Assembly: GCA_024278345.1 (NCBI GenBank)
Contig: JAJRTK010000544.1
Coordinates: forward strand, 1-18,906
Direction of reading: 5' to 3'
Source: a bacterium
Lineage (GTDB): Bacteria; CSSED10-310; JAJRTK01
Length of the DNA: 18,906 nucleotides
Numbering within the stretch: the first letter of the stretch is position 1; each line of letters begins with the position of its first letter. The notes beneath the pieces were generated by a model. It was not told the origin of the DNA. It did no database searches and saw only the letters and a list, made by a program, of their open reading frames with translations. Both the position numbers and the translations under genes were made by a program. Positions 5,324 to 12,930 of the stretch are shown here, piece after piece.

Positions 5324-5713
5324 TCAACTCTTGCGGGACAGCGCCGCTCCGTTGGCCGCCAAAAAACGTGCGAAACACCCAATTCGCGGGTGCTCCTCAT
5401 GGTTTTGAAGCCAGTGAGCCGGGTTGACCTGGGCTCCGAACATGCGTTTGACCTCCCGGCGAAGCACCACCAACGCAAGGGAATCGTAGCCTATCTCCCA
5501 GAGCGTCTTGTCCGGTTCGATGGCTGAAAGCGGGATCTCGGGCTGCTGTTCGTGGATGACCTTTCGCAGGGCATCCAAGAGCGCCGATTCATCCGCGCTC
5601 AGCGGGTCCCCCACAGAATAGAGGGGCATCGAGGGTTCCGACCTCGTCCCTGTTCCACCCGCCGATTCTCCCGGCGACCGCGCAAGGTGACAACTCGTTT
5701 TATCCTTTACCAC
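5324..5713 (-). CDS. Stand-alone acyl carrier protein (phosphopantetheine attachment domain)
   Basis: The C-terminal ~100 residues form an acyl/peptidyl carrier domain: DESALLDALRKVI (helix 1), then TLWEIGYDSLALVVLRREVK with the DSL motif whose serine (about residue 78 from this start) would carry 4'-phosphopantetheine, and a last helix ending near RIGCFARFLAAN. It would hold an acyl chain as a thioester or receive one from the FAAL encoded just upstream. The start is a choice: the frame is open to an ATG at 5848, but that ATG lies inside a dispersed repeat and the first 45 residues look unstructured. GTG at 5713 has GGAGG with a five-base spacer (5719-5723), the strongest ribosome site nearby. 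ATG at 5629 would leave just the carrier domain. The product is about 129 residues from the GTG. No polyketide or peptide synthetase lies in the window to accept the chain. Confidence 0.82.
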   Translation of the reverse strand: MVKDKTSCHLARSPGESAGGTGTRSEPSMPLYSVGDPLSADESALLDALRKVIHEQQPEIPLSAIEPDKTLWEIGYDSLALVVLRREVKRMFGAQVNPAHWLQNHEEHPRIGCFARFLAANGAALSRKS

Positions 5714-5718
5714 TTTTT

Positions 5719-5723
5719 CCTCC
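5719..5723 (-). promoter_or_regulatory. Shine-Dalgarno deciding the ACP start
   Basis: GGAGG followed by five A residues and GTG (5713) on the minus strand. It selects the GTG over the ATG at 5848 and the ATG at 5629, neither of which has a comparable site. Confidence 0.55.
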
Positions 5724-5810
5724 GAAACTGGCAATACAGCCCGCGAAAAACTGCCGGACGGATTGGCCAAAATCCCCTGGCCGCACCGGCGTGACCCGGG
5801 AATCCTGCAT

Positions 5811-5816
5811 ATAATA
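5811..5816 (-). promoter_or_regulatory. Possible -10 box (TATTAT) in the FAAL-ACP gap
   Basis: TATTAT on the minus strand matches five of six bases of the sigma70 -10 consensus in an otherwise GC-rich gap. No recognisable -35 element lies 16-18 bases upstream, so this is a weak candidate for an internal promoter that would let ACP and acnA be made separately from dsbD-FAAL. Transcripts from here would have a leader of about 90 bases. Confidence 0.2.
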
Positions 5817-5830
5817 GGGTGATGACGGGT

Positions 5831-5862
5831 GTTGAGTTCCGCTTCCATCGGTCGCAGCCGCT
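5831..5862 (-). repeat. Dispersed leader repeat, copy 1
   Basis: This 32-base stretch in the gap between the FAAL stop and the ACP start matches 18290-18321 at 28 of 32 positions with no gaps, in the same orientation relative to the minus-strand genes. Weaker similarity continues for about 13 bases beyond. It contains the ATG at 5848 that would otherwise extend the ACP frame. It does not fold into an obvious strong hairpin by eye. The nature of the repeat is unknown. Confidence 0.55.
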
Positions 5863-5874
5863 CCCGCTGCTCGC

Positions 5875-7728
5875 CTACTCCTGCCTCCTGGCCGGAGCGT
5901 TGTCCCCGCTCCCCGGTGTGACCGAAGTTCCGGGGGCCAGTGGAACCACTTTTAGCTTCCCTTCCTGAAACAGGCGCCCCGACCGCTTCCGCTGGAGCTT
6001 GCCGCTGGTAGTCTTGGGAAGCTCCCTGGGCTCCAGCAATACGATGGAATCCGGCGGAAACCCGAAGGCGTCAAAGACCGCCCGGCGGATCTCGCCCGAG
6101 AGCCCGATGAGGTCTTCCTCTTTTTTCACACGGGTTTCCGCCAAAACGAAGATCCGCTCTGTCCCCCGTACAGGGTCTACGAAACCCACGGCCACGGTGC
6201 ATCCTCGGCGGACACCGACAACTTCGGAAACTACCGCCTCGATATCATGGGGATGCAGATTCCGCCCGGCCCGGATGAGCATGTCGCTCTCCCGGCCGGT
6301 GACATAGAGTTCGCCATGGGCCATGTAGCCGCGATCCCCCGTGCGCAGCCAAAAGCGCGAGGCCCTCCGTTTTTCGCCGGAAGTCTCTCTTGCCCCTCCA
6401 GCTATCCGCGCCATGGCGCGAGCCGTGGCCTCGGGGTTTCCCAGGTAGCCCCCCAGCATCGAGGAGCCTCGCAGATGGATCGCGCCCTCCAGTCTTTCGG
6501 GCAGGGTGCGCCCTTTCTCGTCCAGGATAGCGATCTCCGTCCCGGGAACGGCCTTTCCCAGGGCGGCCACCTCCTTGAGATCACCCGCCCCGGCAGGCGC
6601 CGGGACAGCACGGCCCGTAGCCTCGAACTCGGACCGAAAGATCCGGTCGAAAACCGGACCCCGGCCCAGGGGAGGAAAAGCCACGGCCAGCGTGTTTTCC
6701 GCCATCCCATAGACAGGGAGCAGCACCTCGGCCCGGAGACCCCACCGCTGGAACCTCTTGGCGAATCCCTCCAGAGTCGAGCGCTGGATCGGCTCGGCTC
6801 CATTGAAGGCCACCCGGATGCAGCTCAAATCTACACCCTCCAGCTCCTCGTCATCGATCCCCAGCAGGCAAAGGCCATACGCGAAATTGGGGGCCGTGGC
6901 GATGGTCACCCGGTACTGCGAGATCCCCTGGAGCCAGATGCTCGGCTGGAACAAGAACTGGATGGGCGTGGCGTGGATCGCTCTCCATCCCAGCAGCCAC
7001 GGAAAGATCAACCCACCAAACAGGCCCATGTCGTGGCAGTACGGAAGCCAAGAGAAGATCACGTCATCCCGCCGGCTGTCCATGGCCTCGCCGGTGGCCC
7101 AGCCGTTGGCCAGGATCGCCCGGTGGCTCAGCATGACTCCTTTCGGGTCGCCTGTGGAGCCAGAGGAATACTGCACCAGTGCCAGGTCTTCCGGATCGGG
7201 GTTGGCCGTCGTACGCAAGGGTCTTTCCGCCAAAGGAGGCTTCAGAAAACGCACTCCACTCCGGCCTAGCGCCTTGGAGGATTCTAGCATCTTCTCATCC
7301 ACGACGGCCGCGGCAGGCTCACACTGCTGAAGCATCTTTTCCAGCCGCCCCATGTACCGCGTCATGACCCTGGCTGTCTGGGGCGGCGGATAGATCACCG
7401 GCACAACGCCCGCCAGAATCATTCCGAAAAGCGTCTCCACGAAGTCGGGCTCGTTGGGCAGAAGGAGCAGGACCCGGTCACCGGGTCGAAGCCCCGATTC
7501 CAAGAGTCCCGCTCCCCTAAGGCGCGCACGGTGCAAGAGCGTGCCGGTGGCGAAGACCCGGTCTTCGCCCACGGGACTGACAAAGGTGAGGAATGGGTCC
7601 ACGTAGCCAGCTCGATGGAGAATCATCTCCACCAGGTTTTTGGGAACCAGTGGTGGCGTCACCTTTTCCGGACCATTCAGGGCCGTCGCGGGCGCTCCCG
7701 GACCATGGGTGGAACTCCTGGCGGTCAT
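5875..7728 (-). CDS. Fatty acyl-AMP ligase (FAAL-like adenylating enzyme)
   Basis: A 617-residue ANL-superfamily enzyme that would activate a fatty acid with ATP and pass the acyl group to a carrier protein. Motifs in order: VQYSSGSTGDPKGVMLSH (P-loop, about 185-202), SWLPYCHDMGLFGG (about 226-239, the FAAL-style 'SWLP.yHDMGL'), FNGAEPI (308-314), VYGMAENT (339-346), the linker between 350 and 395 ending ALGKAVPGTE, which resembles the FAAL-specific insertion and 'scG.p.pG' block, LRTGDRGYMAHGELYVTGR (461-479) and the C-terminal catalytic lysine in PKTTSGKLQR (Lys577). The FAAL assignment over an acyl-CoA ligase rests on these blocks and on the ACP gene that follows. The ATG at 7728 overlaps the dsbD stop by 4 bases, with AAGGAGG at 7739-7745. 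No membrane segment is seen. The stop is TAG. Confidence 0.88.
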   Translation of the reverse strand: MTARSSTHGPGAPATALNGPEKVTPPLVPKNLVEMILHRAGYVDPFLTFVSPVGEDRVFATGTLLHRARLRGAGLLESGLRPGDRVLLLLPNEPDFVETLFGMILAGVVPVIYPPPQTARVMTRYMGRLEKMLQQCEPAAAVVDEKMLESSKALGRSGVRFLKPPLAERPLRTTANPDPEDLALVQYSSGSTGDPKGVMLSHRAILANGWATGEAMDSRRDDVIFSWLPYCHDMGLFGGLIFPWLLGWRAIHATPIQFLFQPSIWLQGISQYRVTIATAPNFAYGLCLLGIDDEELEGVDLSCIRVAFNGAEPIQRSTLEGFAKRFQRWGLRAEVLLPVYGMAENTLAVAFPPLGRGPVFDRIFRSEFEATGRAVPAPAGAGDLKEVAALGKAVPGTEIAILDEKGRTLPERLEGAIHLRGSSMLGGYLGNPEATARAMARIAGGARETSGEKRRASRFWLRTGDRGYMAHGELYVTGRESDMLIRAGRNLHPHDIEAVVSEVVGVRRGCTVAVGFVDPVRGTERIFVLAETRVKKEEDLIGLSGEIRRAVFDAFGFPPDSIVLLEPRELPKTTSGKLQRKRSGRLFQEGKLKVVPLAPGTSVTPGSGDNAPARRQE

Positions 7729-10340
7729 GGGTTTGGCGCCTCCTTGCCCACTGCCGCCTTCACCTTTCTGAGGCGGTCCAGGAAGGGACCGGCCTTCTCG
7801 AATCCCGTGAGCGTCAAATCTGGAAAGGGTTTTCCTTCTGCCGTCAAAAAGAGAACCGTGGGCAGGCCCATGACCCCATATTTCTTGTAAAGATCCAGGA
7901 GCTCCGGTGTCTCGCGGGTCCCGTCGATCTTAATGGAGACGAACTCTTTCAGGAATTCGGCCACGCTATCGTCAGCATAGGTGTAGAGATCCAGCTCCTT
8001 ACACGCGGCGCACCAATCGGCGTAAAAATCGATCATGACGGGCCTCTCCAATTCCGAGGCCGCCTGGAACCCGCTTTCTTCCGAATGGTGCCATTCCACC
8101 TTGACCGCCGCGGCCTCCCTCTGCTGAACCGCGGTGGCCGACGCAAGCCCAGAGTCAAAGATCGCCGGCCAGCCCAGGGAGGCGGCGATCACAAGAAGAT
8201 AGGTCGCCACGGCGCCCATGGTGGCGGTGGCTGCCCGCCGCTGCCGCTCTGATTCCAGCTCGCCCATGGCAAGAACCAGCAGGACCAATGTCAGGAGAAC
8301 CAGCGGCACGAACGGTGGAAGGAGCGGCAGCGCGAAGAACCAGGCTACCCCGAAGAGCGTGGCTCCCAACAGATGTTTTACTCGGATCATCCAGGTTCCC
8401 GATTTCGGCAGGCTGGTGAGAACGCCGCTAAATGTGCCGATGATGACGAAGAGTATTCCCATTCCAAGGGCGAAAACGAACATCAAGGAGAATCCAAGGC
8501 CAAGGCTGGCTGCCCGCGATGTGCCAGGATCCGCCGCCGCCGTGGCGATCCAGCTCAAGATGCCGATGACCATCGGGCCTACGCAGGGCGACGCCACGAC
8601 TCCGGTGACCATGCCCACAAGGAAGGCGCCCTTGTGCCCCGACCCACCGATCCGGTTCAGCCGGTTGGCCATGGCGGGGGGCACCGCAAGCTCGTAAAAC
8701 TCGAACATCCCAAGCGCTAGAGCCGCAAAGACAAGGGAGACGAAGCCCACCACCCACGGGTTTTGAAGCACCCATCCGAAGACGCTTCCCGTAGCTCCCG
8801 CCACAACGCCCAGGAGTGCGTAGACCAGGGCGAGACCAAGGACGAAGAAAAGCGAGAGCACGAATCCTCTCCACCGGCTCTCCGCGCTACTGGCACCGAT
8901 GACCGCCACGGTGATGGGGATCATGGGGTAGACACATGGCGTCAAGCTCGCCAGAATGCCTCCAAGAAAGACGAAGAAATAGGCGTAGAGAAGGCCTCGC
9001 TTCAAGGCGGAACCAAGATCCTCCGCCGAAGTAACTCCTGTCCCGCCAGAGTCCGGAGCCGCCAAGGCCATACTGGCGACTTTCGCCGGAGACGCGATTT
9101 CCAGCGTCACACCGAGTTCTTTTGTGGTGGGAATGAAGCAGACTTCTTCACTACACGCTTGGTAGCGCACCTCCAGGATGAGGGTTTTCATCCCAAGAGT
9201 AGCCTCCGCGGCCACCCGGACTGGCAGGCGAACCACAAAATCCTCTTGGTAGATCCGGGCGACCTTGCCCAGGGACTGGACGTGCTTCTCCTTGGGCTTT
9301 GGAAACAGGGCCTCGCCCGCCTGGAGTCCCACCGAGAGTTTCTTGACCGTCACGTTAGTCAGGTCCCTGTTGACGTAGTGCGCGGCGGCAATCTGGAAGC
9401 GGATCTCGACGGCGGTCTTGCTTCCCGGCGCCGCCATTCCAGGGACGGCCACCGCCTGGATGCTCACCGGAGCCTCTTCCTTGCCGGTCTTTCCCAAACC
9501 TGCCTTCCCTTGGGCGGACATGTCCTCGGCAAAGACGAACTCCTTGCGAAGCCCAGTGTCAGGATGACTTTGTCCGACCGGGGCAGCCGGGGAACTGCTC
9601 TTCTCGCTTGGGCTTTCGTCGGCCGCCCCAGTGTTCCCAACGGCTTCCGGAGGCTTGTTACCGGCGGGCTCCGCGGGTATGCTCGTGCCAGAGGCCCCTT
9701 CGACGAAAGAAGTGATCTCTACCAGCAGCGGCCTCTTCACTGTCTCCGGAAGAAGGCAGAGCTTCTGACTACAGGCCTGATACCGGACGCGAAAAAGAAG
9801 AGATCGCTTCCCGCGATTGGCCGTTGCATCGATTCTTACGGGAACCCAAACGGAGAAGTCGTGAGGGTAAATCTTGGCGACTTTACCCAGGGAGGCCACG
9901 TGTTTTTCCTTCGGCTCCGGGAATTCGGGATCACCGAACGAAAGGCCGGGAGAGGGATCGAATTGGATTGAGGTCATCTCGCGATTGATATAGTGGCCTT
10001 CCGCCAGTTGAAATCGGATTTCGACCTTGGCTTCGGAACCTGCGGGCCAGACAGAGGCGGAAGATTGAATCGTCACCGAGACAGGCGCTTCGGCGGAGGG
10101 GGCATCGGCGGCTTCCGTCGAGATGGGAGCTTTCTCCATGGAGCTGCCACCACCCCTATTCAGAATCTCGTCCAGGTCGGGGCTGGGCCCGGCCCCGGAA
10201 AGGCTTGGATAGAGGCAAACAAGCGCCGCAAGGAACGTCCAAGTCCAGAAGCCTGTGCCCTTTTCGGCCTTCGATCTCGTTCCAGACTCCTGAAAAAAGA
10301 TACGCGGCATGGAAAGATCCCGTTTTTCGCTTTGTCTCAT
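7725..10340 (-). CDS. dsbD: Thiol:disulfide interchange protein DsbD with duplicated alpha domain
   Basis: A transmembrane reductase that carries electrons from cytoplasmic thioredoxin to periplasmic thiol partners. Residues 27-50 form a signal sequence (WTWTFLAALVCLYPSLSGA). Two N-terminal alpha domains follow, at about 86-210 and 291-415, each with a redox pair in YQACSQKLC (Cys190/195) and YQACSEEVC (Cys396/401), separated by a Ser/Pro-rich linker. The membrane beta domain (about 450-725) has about eight hydrophobic segments and the paired cysteines of LTPCVYPM (Cys469) and ASPCVGPM (Cys586). The gamma thioredoxin domain ends the protein with DFYADWCAACKE (Cys777/780). At 871 residues it is longer than the usual 550-600, owing largely to the second alpha domain. 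The ATG has GGGAG six bases upstream. It is the first gene of the minus-strand run, and its client here is unknown. Confidence 0.95.
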   Translation of the reverse strand: MRQSEKRDLSMPRIFFQESGTRSKAEKGTGFWTWTFLAALVCLYPSLSGAGPSPDLDEILNRGGGSSMEKAPISTEAADAPSAEAPVSVTIQSSASVWPAGSEAKVEIRFQLAEGHYINREMTSIQFDPSPGLSFGDPEFPEPKEKHVASLGKVAKIYPHDFSVWVPVRIDATANRGKRSLLFRVRYQACSQKLCLLPETVKRPLLVEITSFVEGASGTSIPAEPAGNKPPEAVGNTGAADESPSEKSSSPAAPVGQSHPDTGLRKEFVFAEDMSAQGKAGLGKTGKEEAPVSIQAVAVPGMAAPGSKTAVEIRFQIAAAHYVNRDLTNVTVKKLSVGLQAGEALFPKPKEKHVQSLGKVARIYQEDFVVRLPVRVAAEATLGMKTLILEVRYQACSEEVCFIPTTKELGVTLEIASPAKVASMALAAPDSGGTGVTSAEDLGSALKRGLLYAYFFVFLGGILASLTPCVYPMIPITVAVIGASSAESRWRGFVLSLFFVLGLALVYALLGVVAGATGSVFGWVLQNPWVVGFVSLVFAALALGMFEFYELAVPPAMANRLNRIGGSGHKGAFLVGMVTGVVASPCVGPMVIGILSWIATAAADPGTSRAASLGLGFSLMFVFALGMGILFVIIGTFSGVLTSLPKSGTWMIRVKHLLGATLFGVAWFFALPLLPPFVPLVLLTLVLLVLAMGELESERQRRAATATMGAVATYLLVIAASLGWPAIFDSGLASATAVQQREAAAVKVEWHHSEESGFQAASELERPVMIDFYADWCAACKELDLYTYADDSVAEFLKEFVSIKIDGTRETPELLDLYKKYGVMGLPTVLFLTAEGKPFPDLTLTGFEKAGPFLDRLRKVKAAVGKEAPNP

Positions 10341-10431: not shown

Positions 10432-11886
10432 ATGTTTAGATGTAAAAAAAAGAAGAACAAGAAATTGGGTGTCGAGCCCGGAGCGTATCGAAAAGTCCAT
10501 GCGGCCGGCGGAGGAGTGGCCGCCCCAAAAAATCACGGGGTCCTGAATGCGCCGGTTTCCGGGTGGTGTCACTGGCCTTTCCGGTCAATGGTGCTTTCGT
10601 CCGATGGCAGTGTGGTCTGCGGTTGTGCCGATCCTTTCGTGCAGCGGCCTTTGGGAAACGCCGCTCAACAGAGCCTCCTGGAAATATGGAACGGCGAAGG
10701 GTTTCAGCAGATTCGGCGTGGAGTCAATGCCGGTGACCTGGCTGCCTGTGGCGACTGCGGGCTCCGAGAACTCCGGCCCGATCCCGCTCCGCCAACGCTG
10801 CCTCTTCAACTGGATCGCGGTCCCACGAGGCTGTTCGTCGAACCTTCCATTGTCTGCAACATCTCCTGCTACAAGGCGGTTTGCAACCAGGAGAACGGGA
10901 TTGTGGGCTCAAGAACGTCGAAGCTCCTCCCTTTTTGGCTGTTCAAAAAAACGATGGACGAGCTGGGTCCAGGACTGGAAAGGTTGGAATTCTACAATTA
11001 TGGAGAGAGTTTCGTCAATCCAAACTGCTACGACATGATCGCCTACGCTAAAGAGCGTTTTCCAGGGCTCTTCATCTACGCCTCCAGCAATGGGTTGCTC
11101 TTTTACAACCAGTCTCGTCGAGAAAAGCTCCTGAAAAGTGGCCTCGATGAAATCGTCTTTTCCATCGACGGCGCCAGCGCCGAAAGCTATTCCCGCTACC
11201 GAGTCAAGGGTGACTTTGAGCTGGTCACCAAAAACCTCCGGGAATGTGTCCGCCTGAAACGCATCCTTGGCCTCCAGCGACCCCGGATTATCTGGAGGTA
11301 CATTCTCTTTCGTTGGAATGATTCCCACGAAGAAATGACCCGGGCACTGGAGCTCGCCAAGAAAATCGGAGTCGATGGGTTTTATTGGGAGATCACCGAC
11401 CACCCCCCCGGGACGGCCTCGGAGCGGTTTGTTCCTGGCACGGAATCCTTCCAGCGGATTCGGCACCAGGTCTGGGGCTATTCTCACCTGGGCGCCAGGG
11501 CGGATCTGCGTCTCTTGGAGGCTCCGGTGGAAGTCATGGCCGGTGGCCGGTTCCAGCTTCTCCTCGATGCCAAGAACCTGGGTCACGATCTCTGGGAACC
11601 GAACCACCCGCTTCACAAGGAGTTCGTGCGGATCGGCGTTCAACTCTTGGATGAGCACGGGTTGCTCTTGAATCGGGACTGGTCCCGCCACTGGCTGCCC
11701 CATGCCGTGCGCCCGGGGGAATCGGTTCGTTTAAATCTCGAACTGACCGCTCCTCTGGATCCGGGGGATTACATCCTTCGAATCGACGGGGTCCTTGAGG
11801 GCGTCACGTGGTTCCAGGACGTCGGCTCACAGGTCCTGGAAGCGGAGTTTCGGGTCATAGGTCAATCGCCCATTTCCGGCGTGTAG
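10432..11886 (+). CDS. Radical SAM protein with N-terminal SPASM-like cysteines and C-terminal beta-sandwich
   Basis: About 484 residues in three parts. Residues 45-110 look like a SPASM auxiliary-cluster segment: WCHWPFRSMVLSSDG, CGC, LGNAAQQSLLEIWNGE and CGDC, with cysteines near 46, 63, 65, 106 and 109. A radical SAM core follows: VEPSIVCNISCYKAVC (cysteines near 142, 146, 151, spacing C-x3-C-x4-C rather than the usual C-x3-C-x2-C), FYNYGESFVNP in place of the GGEP block, IYASSNG and IVFSIDGASAESYSRYR. Residues about 360-478 form a beta-rich domain (RIGVQLLDEHGLLL, LPHAVRPGESVRL, LDPGDYILRID, VTWFQDVGS) like the sandwiches attached to some sugar-modifying or Wzt-type proteins. SPASM normally lies after the SAM core, so the order is reversed. 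ATG 10432 is chosen although it lacks a Shine-Dalgarno; TTG 10426 is an alternative. An A8 run at 10444-10451 encodes the first lysines. The substrate is unknown. Confidence 0.82.
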   Translation: MFRCKKKKNKKLGVEPGAYRKVHAAGGGVAAPKNHGVLNAPVSGWCHWPFRSMVLSSDGSVVCGCADPFVQRPLGNAAQQSLLEIWNGEGFQQIRRGVNAGDLAACGDCGLRELRPDPAPPTLPLQLDRGPTRLFVEPSIVCNISCYKAVCNQENGIVGSRTSKLLPFWLFKKTMDELGPGLERLEFYNYGESFVNPNCYDMIAYAKERFPGLFIYASSNGLLFYNQSRREKLLKSGLDEIVFSIDGASAESYSRYRVKGDFELVTKNLRECVRLKRILGLQRPRIIWRYILFRWNDSHEEMTRALELAKKIGVDGFYWEITDHPPGTASERFVPGTESFQRIRHQVWGYSHLGARADLRLLEAPVEVMAGGRFQLLLDAKNLGHDLWEPNHPLHKEFVRIGVQLLDEHGLLLNRDWSRHWLPHAVRPGESVRLNLELTAPLDPGDYILRIDGVLEGVTWFQDVGSQVLEAEFRVIGQSPISGV

Positions 11887-12779
11887 AGGACGACGCGGTT
11901 TCGGCCAAGATCCTTGGCCTTGTAGAGAGCCAGGTCGGCATTCTTGACCAGGACCTCCAGGGAATTCCCATCGTCGGGAAGTCCAGAAATCCCAATGCTG
12001 ATCGTGAGTTGAAGTTCAGTCGATTCGTATCGGAAGATGTGATCGGCGATCCGCTTGCGGAGACGTTCGGCTCCTGTGACGGCCTGGACCCTCGAGGTCT
12101 CCGGGAAGAAGGTGATGAATTCCTCGCCGCCATATCGGCCAGAAATATCGAGCTCGCGAAATGTGTGGCGGATAATGGCGCCGATCTGTTGGAGTACGGC
12201 ACTTCCCACAAGATGCCCGTACGTATCGTTGACCCGCTTAAAGTAGTCGATGTCCATCATGAGCACGGCCAAACTGTAGCCTCGCCTCCATGCACGCGAT
12301 ATCTCCCGGCTTAACTCCTTGTAAAAACTTGCTTTTGTCAAGAGTCCCGTGAGATCGTCATACCGGATCATCTCGTGGACCTTGGCGTGATACTGGAGAT
12401 CCTGTTCGTCCTGGTAGACGAATTTCAGCACGTGATCGCCTACTCGGATCTTGTCGCCGTCCTTGAGGTAGTGTTCCTTAATCGGCTTGTCATTGACGAA
12501 GGTGCCATTGGTGCTGTCGAGATCCCGCACCACGCACCTCAAAGGCTGGAGATCGATGACCCGAAGCTCGGCATGGAAACGGGAGATCAGGTAATTATCG
12601 ATGTGGATATGGGCTTCGGGGCTCCGGCCGATGAGATAGGCACCTTCGGAAAGGTTGTAGGTCGAGCCAAGGTTCATCCCCTCAATCACGACAAGGCCGG
12701 CCACCTTGCTGCGCGCTGCGGCAAGGGACTCGGGAAGCACAAGGCGCTGAGTCTGTTCGAGGTCAGTTTCCAGCTCCAT
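11862..12779 (-). CDS. FHA-GGDEF diguanylate cyclase
   Basis: A cytoplasmic signalling protein of about 305 residues. The FHA domain (about 30-125) should bind phosphothreonine: YLIGRSPEAH, LISRFHAEL and LDSTNGTFVND provide the conserved Arg52, Ser66, His69 and Asn91. A short helical linker leads to a GGDEF domain (about 140-300) with YDDLTGLLTKASF, MMDIDYFKRVNDTYGH and RYGGEEF (active-site GGEEF at about 217-221). RELD, five residues before it, is an intact product-inhibition (I) site. It should therefore make cyclic di-GMP from two GTP, with activity tied to a phosphoprotein partner. ATG 12779 has AAGGA eight bases upstream; GTG at 12800 is less likely. The coiled-coil gene precedes it on the same strand. 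The 3' end overlaps the convergent radical SAM gene by 25 bases. No Ser/Thr kinase is in the window. Confidence 0.95.
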   Translation of the reverse strand: MELETDLEQTQRLVLPESLAAARSKVAGLVVIEGMNLGSTYNLSEGAYLIGRSPEAHIHIDNYLISRFHAELRVIDLQPLRCVVRDLDSTNGTFVNDKPIKEHYLKDGDKIRVGDHVLKFVYQDEQDLQYHAKVHEMIRYDDLTGLLTKASFYKELSREISRAWRRGYSLAVLMMDIDYFKRVNDTYGHLVGSAVLQQIGAIIRHTFRELDISGRYGGEEFITFFPETSRVQAVTGAERLRKRIADHIFRYESTELQLTISIGISGLPDDGNSLEVLVKNADLALYKAKDLGRNRVVLYTPEMGD

Positions 12780-12930
12780 GGGGAGATTCCTTGGTCGCAC
12801 GGGGCAGTCGAACGAGACACCTTTCCACCCGAGTTCTCACTGGGGATCGCGGCAAGGCCATTGGAGGCGTATTCCCACCCTGTGTGCCGGCGTCCATCGC
12901 ATCGAGGCTTTTCGGGTTCCATCCTCCAGT

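Follow-up and report, generated by a model that had tools for sequence, protein, structure and literature searches.

Radical SAM enzymes are recognised by the spacing of their cysteines. The usual motif is CX3CX2C, and non-standard spacings have been described for HmdB (CX5CX2C), QueE (CX14CX2C) and ThiC (CX2CX4C) (PMC4389238). In HmdB and QueE the first gap is lengthened and CX2C is kept, whereas in the family described here it is the second gap that is lengthened; ThiC, with its non-canonical architecture and C-terminal motif, is unlike this family. A lengthened second gap is not known to us from any radical SAM enzyme described so far that has the usual fold, and a literature search for CX3CX4C, N-terminal SPASM and permuted SPASM returned no report, which is weak evidence of absence as most subscription papers lay outside its scope.

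The nearest named radical SAM cores are TIGR04317 (W_rSAM_matur, tungsten-oxidoreductase maturase) and TIGR04311 (rSAM_Geo_metal). Both carry their own SPASM domain at the C terminus, and in both it aligns to the N-terminal segment of the protein analysed here; the protein scores well below their cut-offs (90.3 bits vs 380 and 77 bits vs 400, respectively). The comparable canonical relatives that were examined had CX3CX2C. An N-terminal twitch before the radical SAM core is the hallmark of a further named family, NF033640 (N_Twi_rSAM, NCBIfam); the N-terminal segment of our protein aligns to positions 4-73 of this profile, at a score of 27.2 bits vs a cut-off of 170. Among solved structures the best relative of a profile built from the family was BtrN (PDB 4M7T), a 2-deoxy-scyllo-inosamine dehydrogenase (1.9e-16), next to which the cytosylglucuronate decarboxylase BlsE was matched (7e-7); both similarities are distant, and no peptide maturase was found among the solved relatives of the profile at E 0.01. 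BtrN has one twitch auxiliary cluster, its twitch is C-terminal in alignment order, and it has no beta-sandwich. Its cysteine motif is CX3CX2C.

The radical SAM gene and its stretched cysteine motif

The gene lies at 10432..11886 on the forward strand of the window, the whole stretch of 18,906 nucleotides that was analysed, and encodes 484 amino acids (stop codon included in the coordinates). Its first ~43 residues are not conserved among homologs. The start codon is uncertain, as homologs begin near C46 and an in-frame ATG lies upstream at 10309, from which the protein would be 41 residues longer. A DsbD gene (7725-10340, reverse strand), whose product carries two N-terminal DsbD_N domains (Pfam), is transcribed divergently, and an FHA-GGDEF gene (11862-12800, reverse strand) is convergent and overlaps the end of the radical SAM gene by 25 bases. 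By eye, an acyl carrier protein-like gene adjoining a fatty-acyl-AMP-ligase-like gene was seen at 5324-7728 (reverse strand) and a glycosyltransferase-like gene at 1030-2472.

The protein has cysteines at positions 4, 46, 63, 65, 106, 109, 142, 146, 151, 199 and 272. The radical SAM core comprises residues 131-325 (10822..11406, forward strand), as delimited by matches to TIGR04317/TIGR04311, PF04055 and solved enzymes; the TIGR04317 match covers residues 132-315 (E 1.3e-25, NCBIfam). Inspection of the codons at 10855..10884 (forward strand; CNISCYKAVC) bore out the spacing C142-x3-C146-x4-C151 given in the initial annotation. The canonical CX3CX2C is thus absent from this protein, and CX3CX4C was found in 11/11 family members. 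Membership of the superfamily rests on the fold and on the other motifs, CX3CX2C being usual and not strictly defining, as HmdB and QueE illustrate. Apart from the three cysteines, E137, N143, N189-Y190-G191, S244, D246 and R257 are invariant in the 11 members and E192 is nearly so; by position, the conserved NYGE (189-192), S244 and R257 correspond to the SAM-binding GGE and ribose motifs of SkfB (PMC6231123).

A first AF2 model, built from 3 rows, was poor (pLDDT 61). The second, built from 32 rows including pieces of phage-contig relatives, reached a mean pLDDT of 72, with values of 82-98 for the blocks of residues 161-320 and 71-94 for the twitch blocks (51-100), while the motif loop was of low confidence (pLDDT 66 in block 141-150, 47 in block 151-160). 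Compared with solved structures, the modelled core matched BlsE (Foldseek, E 1.5e-9) and DesII (VIA-align, Z 14.7, rmsd 4.5 over 233 residues), many other radical SAM enzymes scoring only slightly lower; the fold also matched NifB and viperin. Structure matches to GH158 were set aside, as their rmsd was near 18.

Relatives with 37-45% identity to the window protein were found in 6/7 other genomes of the same phylum, one of them truncated at a contig end. Together with a member from another phylum (G041), two from public MAGs labelled Acidobacteria (L038 and L039) and a paralog in the window's own genome (L002), the family has 11 members, window protein included. All of them have C-x3-C-x4-C, in the forms CNISCYKAVC, CNLRCPIPSC, CNINCYNSHC, CNLDCYKSVC, CNISCFQAVC, CNISCYKSVC, CNLRCPTPHC and CNISCLDACC, and L038 and L039 carry an additional cysteine at x3. 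As the spacing is invariant in 11/11 members at 37-45% identity, it is more than chance. G003, the one of these seven genomes without the gene, encodes other radical SAM/SPASM/sandwich proteins, and no CX3CX4C was present among those examined; a wider outgroup of radical SAM/SPASM proteins had CX3CX2C throughout. These comparisons identify a small, previously unnamed bacterial radical SAM subfamily whose second and third cysteines stand two residues further apart than in the usual motif.

In a census of 386 genomes the DNA pattern E-x4-C-N-(L/I/M)-x-C-x4-C, which would miss motifs without the Glu or Asn, occurred at 28 places, 9 of which belong to the family. The remaining matches in radical SAM reading frames all have a cysteine at x2 as well, and thus the canonical motif; the rest were short frames and not radical SAM genes. 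Within the reach of this pattern, every radical SAM gene with CX3CX4C and no CX2C in the 386 genomes therefore belongs to the family. A profile census of the same genomes returned the same family plus one locus in G146, a genome of the same phylum as G041. This protein (L066) has the same layout and the motif CNLDCPTSC, i.e. CX3CX3C. Two further proteins, L067 from a phage contig and L080 (G125), share with the family the N-terminal twitch and a WQYILFDWND-type motif (W/Y-x-Y-I-L-F-x-W-N-D) after the core; these sister rows differ from it by CX3CX2C and by the absence of the sandwich. The phage contig (IMGVR_UViG_3300032118_000034) carries L067 at 102-1046, adjoining tail-like genes. A viral scan with L067 as query gave no match beyond L067 itself, and ordinary radical SAM genes were seen at 28 further viral loci, the majority having their SPASM at the C terminus.

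In a maximum-likelihood tree of the core, L066, L067 and L080 joined the family with support of 100/99. The same grouping was obtained with the motif loop cut from the data (98/99.9), so that it spans spacings of X2 (L067, L080), X3 (L066) and X4 (all others). In the tree without the loop the X4 rows formed one side of a branch at 82/88, a support that is not strong, and L067 and L080 sit on long branches, their exact place being unsure. The simplest reading of these trees is that the twitch was already N-terminal when the loop became longer.

An N-terminal twitch-like segment and a reused beta-sandwich

Residues 46-109 (10567..10758, forward strand) match PF13186 (SPASM; E 5e-12, profile 1-66 of 67, Pfam), a match shared by 10/11 family members, the remaining one being truncated. 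The cysteine segment hence stands upstream of the core match at 132-315, as the initial annotation had it, and it is to this N-terminal segment that positions 266-317 of the TIGR04317 profile, its C-terminal SPASM part, align; the order is therefore SPASM/twitch, then core. AF2 predicts a beta-hairpin and a helix here. C46, C63, C65, C106 and C109, near-invariant in the 11-member alignment, are candidate ligands of an auxiliary cluster. The full SPASM motif has seven cysteines and serves two auxiliary clusters (PMC6231123). Because only five candidates are present, the segment is, by its sequence, twitch-like with room for one auxiliary cluster, and the label SPASM holds for the profile match and its conserved cysteines and not for a seven-cysteine domain.

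The suggestion that this layout is without precedent was not upheld, since NF033640 is a named family with this order and an N-terminal SPASM/twitch ahead of a canonical core was found in L054, L055, L059, L080, L067 and L005. L054 lies above the NF033640 cut-off and has CX3CX2C, an N-terminal twitch and no beta-sandwich; L055 and L059 are weaker relatives with the same twitch position and motif. L005, a 599-residue protein of the window's own genome (G000:C53), has a SPASM-like segment at its N terminus, followed by a canonical core and, at the C terminus, two sandwiches. As it shares the order and lies elsewhere in the core tree than the window family, the reversed order most likely arose more than once. 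In the SkfB structure the chain, on leaving the core, runs back to where the core begins and only then forms the twitch (PMC6231123), a path that may explain why reordering would be easy.

Other arrangements were seen among radical SAM proteins. L008, also from the window's own genome (G000:C448 19030-20900, 623 aa), has a CX3CX2C core, a beta-sandwich, a SPASM and a second beta-sandwich, and a similar protein is present in G007:C256 (L156). In L027 (259-2628, G058, 790 aa) a radical SAM/SPASM protein is joined to a glycosyltransferase-2-like domain. L154 (G003) and L160 (G001) are 750-765 aa long, with radical SAM, SPASM, a long coiled-coil-like stretch and a C-terminal sandwich. L157 (350-4182, G004:C3), L158 and L159 are canonical radical SAM/SPASM proteins of 630-650 aa with an uncharacterised C-terminal half; proteins of this type are common to several genomes of the phylum, and two stand in tandem in G004.

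At the C-terminal end the fused beta-sandwich was confirmed: residues 366-476 were predicted mostly as beta strands in the AF2 models, and the Ig-like domain was delimited to residues 364-476 (11521..11859, forward strand). The best family match was the NBR1 Ig-like N_BRCA1_IG/FW domain (PF16158), with 17.5 bits vs a gathering score of 28 for the window protein and weak matches in 6/11 members (best 3.7e-5); Wzt_C (PF14524) reached 13.7 bits vs 30.4. Several other radical SAM proteins of the phylum carry this domain as well; with partners judged by eye, it is also present on a 1170-aa Caldilineaceae protein and on a Nitrosomonas protein resembling a non-ribosomal peptide synthetase. By its distribution it is regarded as a common, widely reused accessory domain; the proposed sugar- or envelope-related type fits in that the domain recurs on other proteins, and it is weakened by the NBR1-type match being the best.

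Proposed function and alternative explanations

Since the SAM-binding residues are conserved, the window protein is probably an active radical SAM enzyme of this subfamily with one auxiliary cluster. The core [4Fe-4S] cluster would be bound through C142, C146 and C151, the ligation by C151 being presumed. In canonical enzymes the residue between the second and third cysteine of CX3CX-phi-C contacts the adenine of SAM (PMC6231123). The two-residue insertion would lengthen the loop at exactly this adenine-packing site, and the SAM pocket is therefore probably remodelled. The cluster would cleave SAM to the 5'-deoxyadenosyl radical, which would take a hydrogen atom from the substrate, and the auxiliary cluster in the twitch might act as an electron acceptor, a role that has been proposed for those of BtrN and anSME (PMC6231123). 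Although it precedes the core in sequence, the twitch could fill the same place in space as a C-terminal one, since in enzymes of the usual order the chain returns to the N terminus of the core before it forms the twitch. The Ig-like sandwich may hold the substrate or a partner. A stepwise lengthening of the gap from X2 through X3 to X4 within a canonical fold, by which the adenine-contacting residue was moved, SAM binding was remodelled and the chemistry possibly altered, has in our view slightly less than an even chance of being correct. For the substrate we lean tentatively to a sugar, cyclitol or glycan, because BtrN and BlsE, the nearest solved relatives by sequence, act on an aminocyclitol and a nucleoside sugar. 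Function within the SPASM/twitch subfamily is hard to predict from similarity (PMC6231123).

It is rather unlikely, if still to be reckoned with, that the protein is a maturase which modifies a peptide or protein, for instance a metalloenzyme or an exported protein, docked by the sandwich. TIGR04317, matched by 11/11 members (best 9e-31), and TIGR04311 are the nearest NCBIfam cores, and NBR1-type Ig domains bind proteins. Some members also adjoin genes for exported-looking proteins: an LVIVD lipoprotein gene in the close relatives G002 and G005, where the two starts overlap and an operon is likely, an M14 peptidase gene with regulators in the close relatives G004 and G007, and the gene of a sulfatase-fold protein in G001. 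Against this stand the TIGR04317 score (90 bits vs 380), the lack of any peptide-binding RRE-type domain among the Pfam matches of family members, and the neighbourhoods themselves: when those of the members were compared, no gene neighbourhood, operon or partner and no precursor peptide or small ORF beside the gene was conserved across the family, and the survey gave no pathway. A role as sulfatase maturase, raised by G001, was dropped, as no other member lies beside a gene of this kind and the segment examined in the G001 neighbour was without the usual C/S-x-P-S-R.

Rather than marking a remodelled ordinary site, the stretched motif might reflect a changed mode of cleavage or SAM binding, with another SAM-derived radical or another fourth ligand. 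The insertion does fall where the canonical residue contacts the adenine (PMC6231123), and in Dph1-Dph2 an unusual cysteine arrangement accompanies a different radical (PMC11048331); all members, however, keep the canonical SAM-binding residues, and the X2-X3-X4 series suggests that the change came gradually in a fold that is otherwise canonical, so that we regard a changed mode as improbable. Even less probable is a degenerate, non-catalytic protein whose fold is kept as a scaffold. The PF04055 match of the window protein would fit it, being below the gathering score (24.9 vs 29.5 bits) and beginning only at residue 190, past the cysteine motif, but PF04055 matches another member at 3.9e-14, and at identities of 37-45% all 11 members keep the residues of the cluster and of SAM binding unchanged. 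That the spacing stems from faulty assembly, a frameshift or misalignment, finally, has next to no likelihood and is refuted by its recurrence in genomes independent of one another, in two MAGs that were assembled differently and in a paralog.

The reading we favour is an active radical SAM enzyme with a probably remodelled SAM site. The layout and the spacing described in the initial annotation stand, while its emphasis on domain order was partly misplaced: the reversed order is already known and named (NF033640), whereas CX3CX4C with no CX2C was, within the reach of the census pattern, confined to the window family among the radical SAM genes of the 386 genomes. Of the three features that it had singled out, CX3CX4C is the distinctive one, and the interest lies in the stretched second gap. 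Searches based on the usual motif would miss enzymes of this kind, and the series of X2, X3 and X4 in close relatives would allow a direct test of what this loop contributes to SAM binding and radical control.
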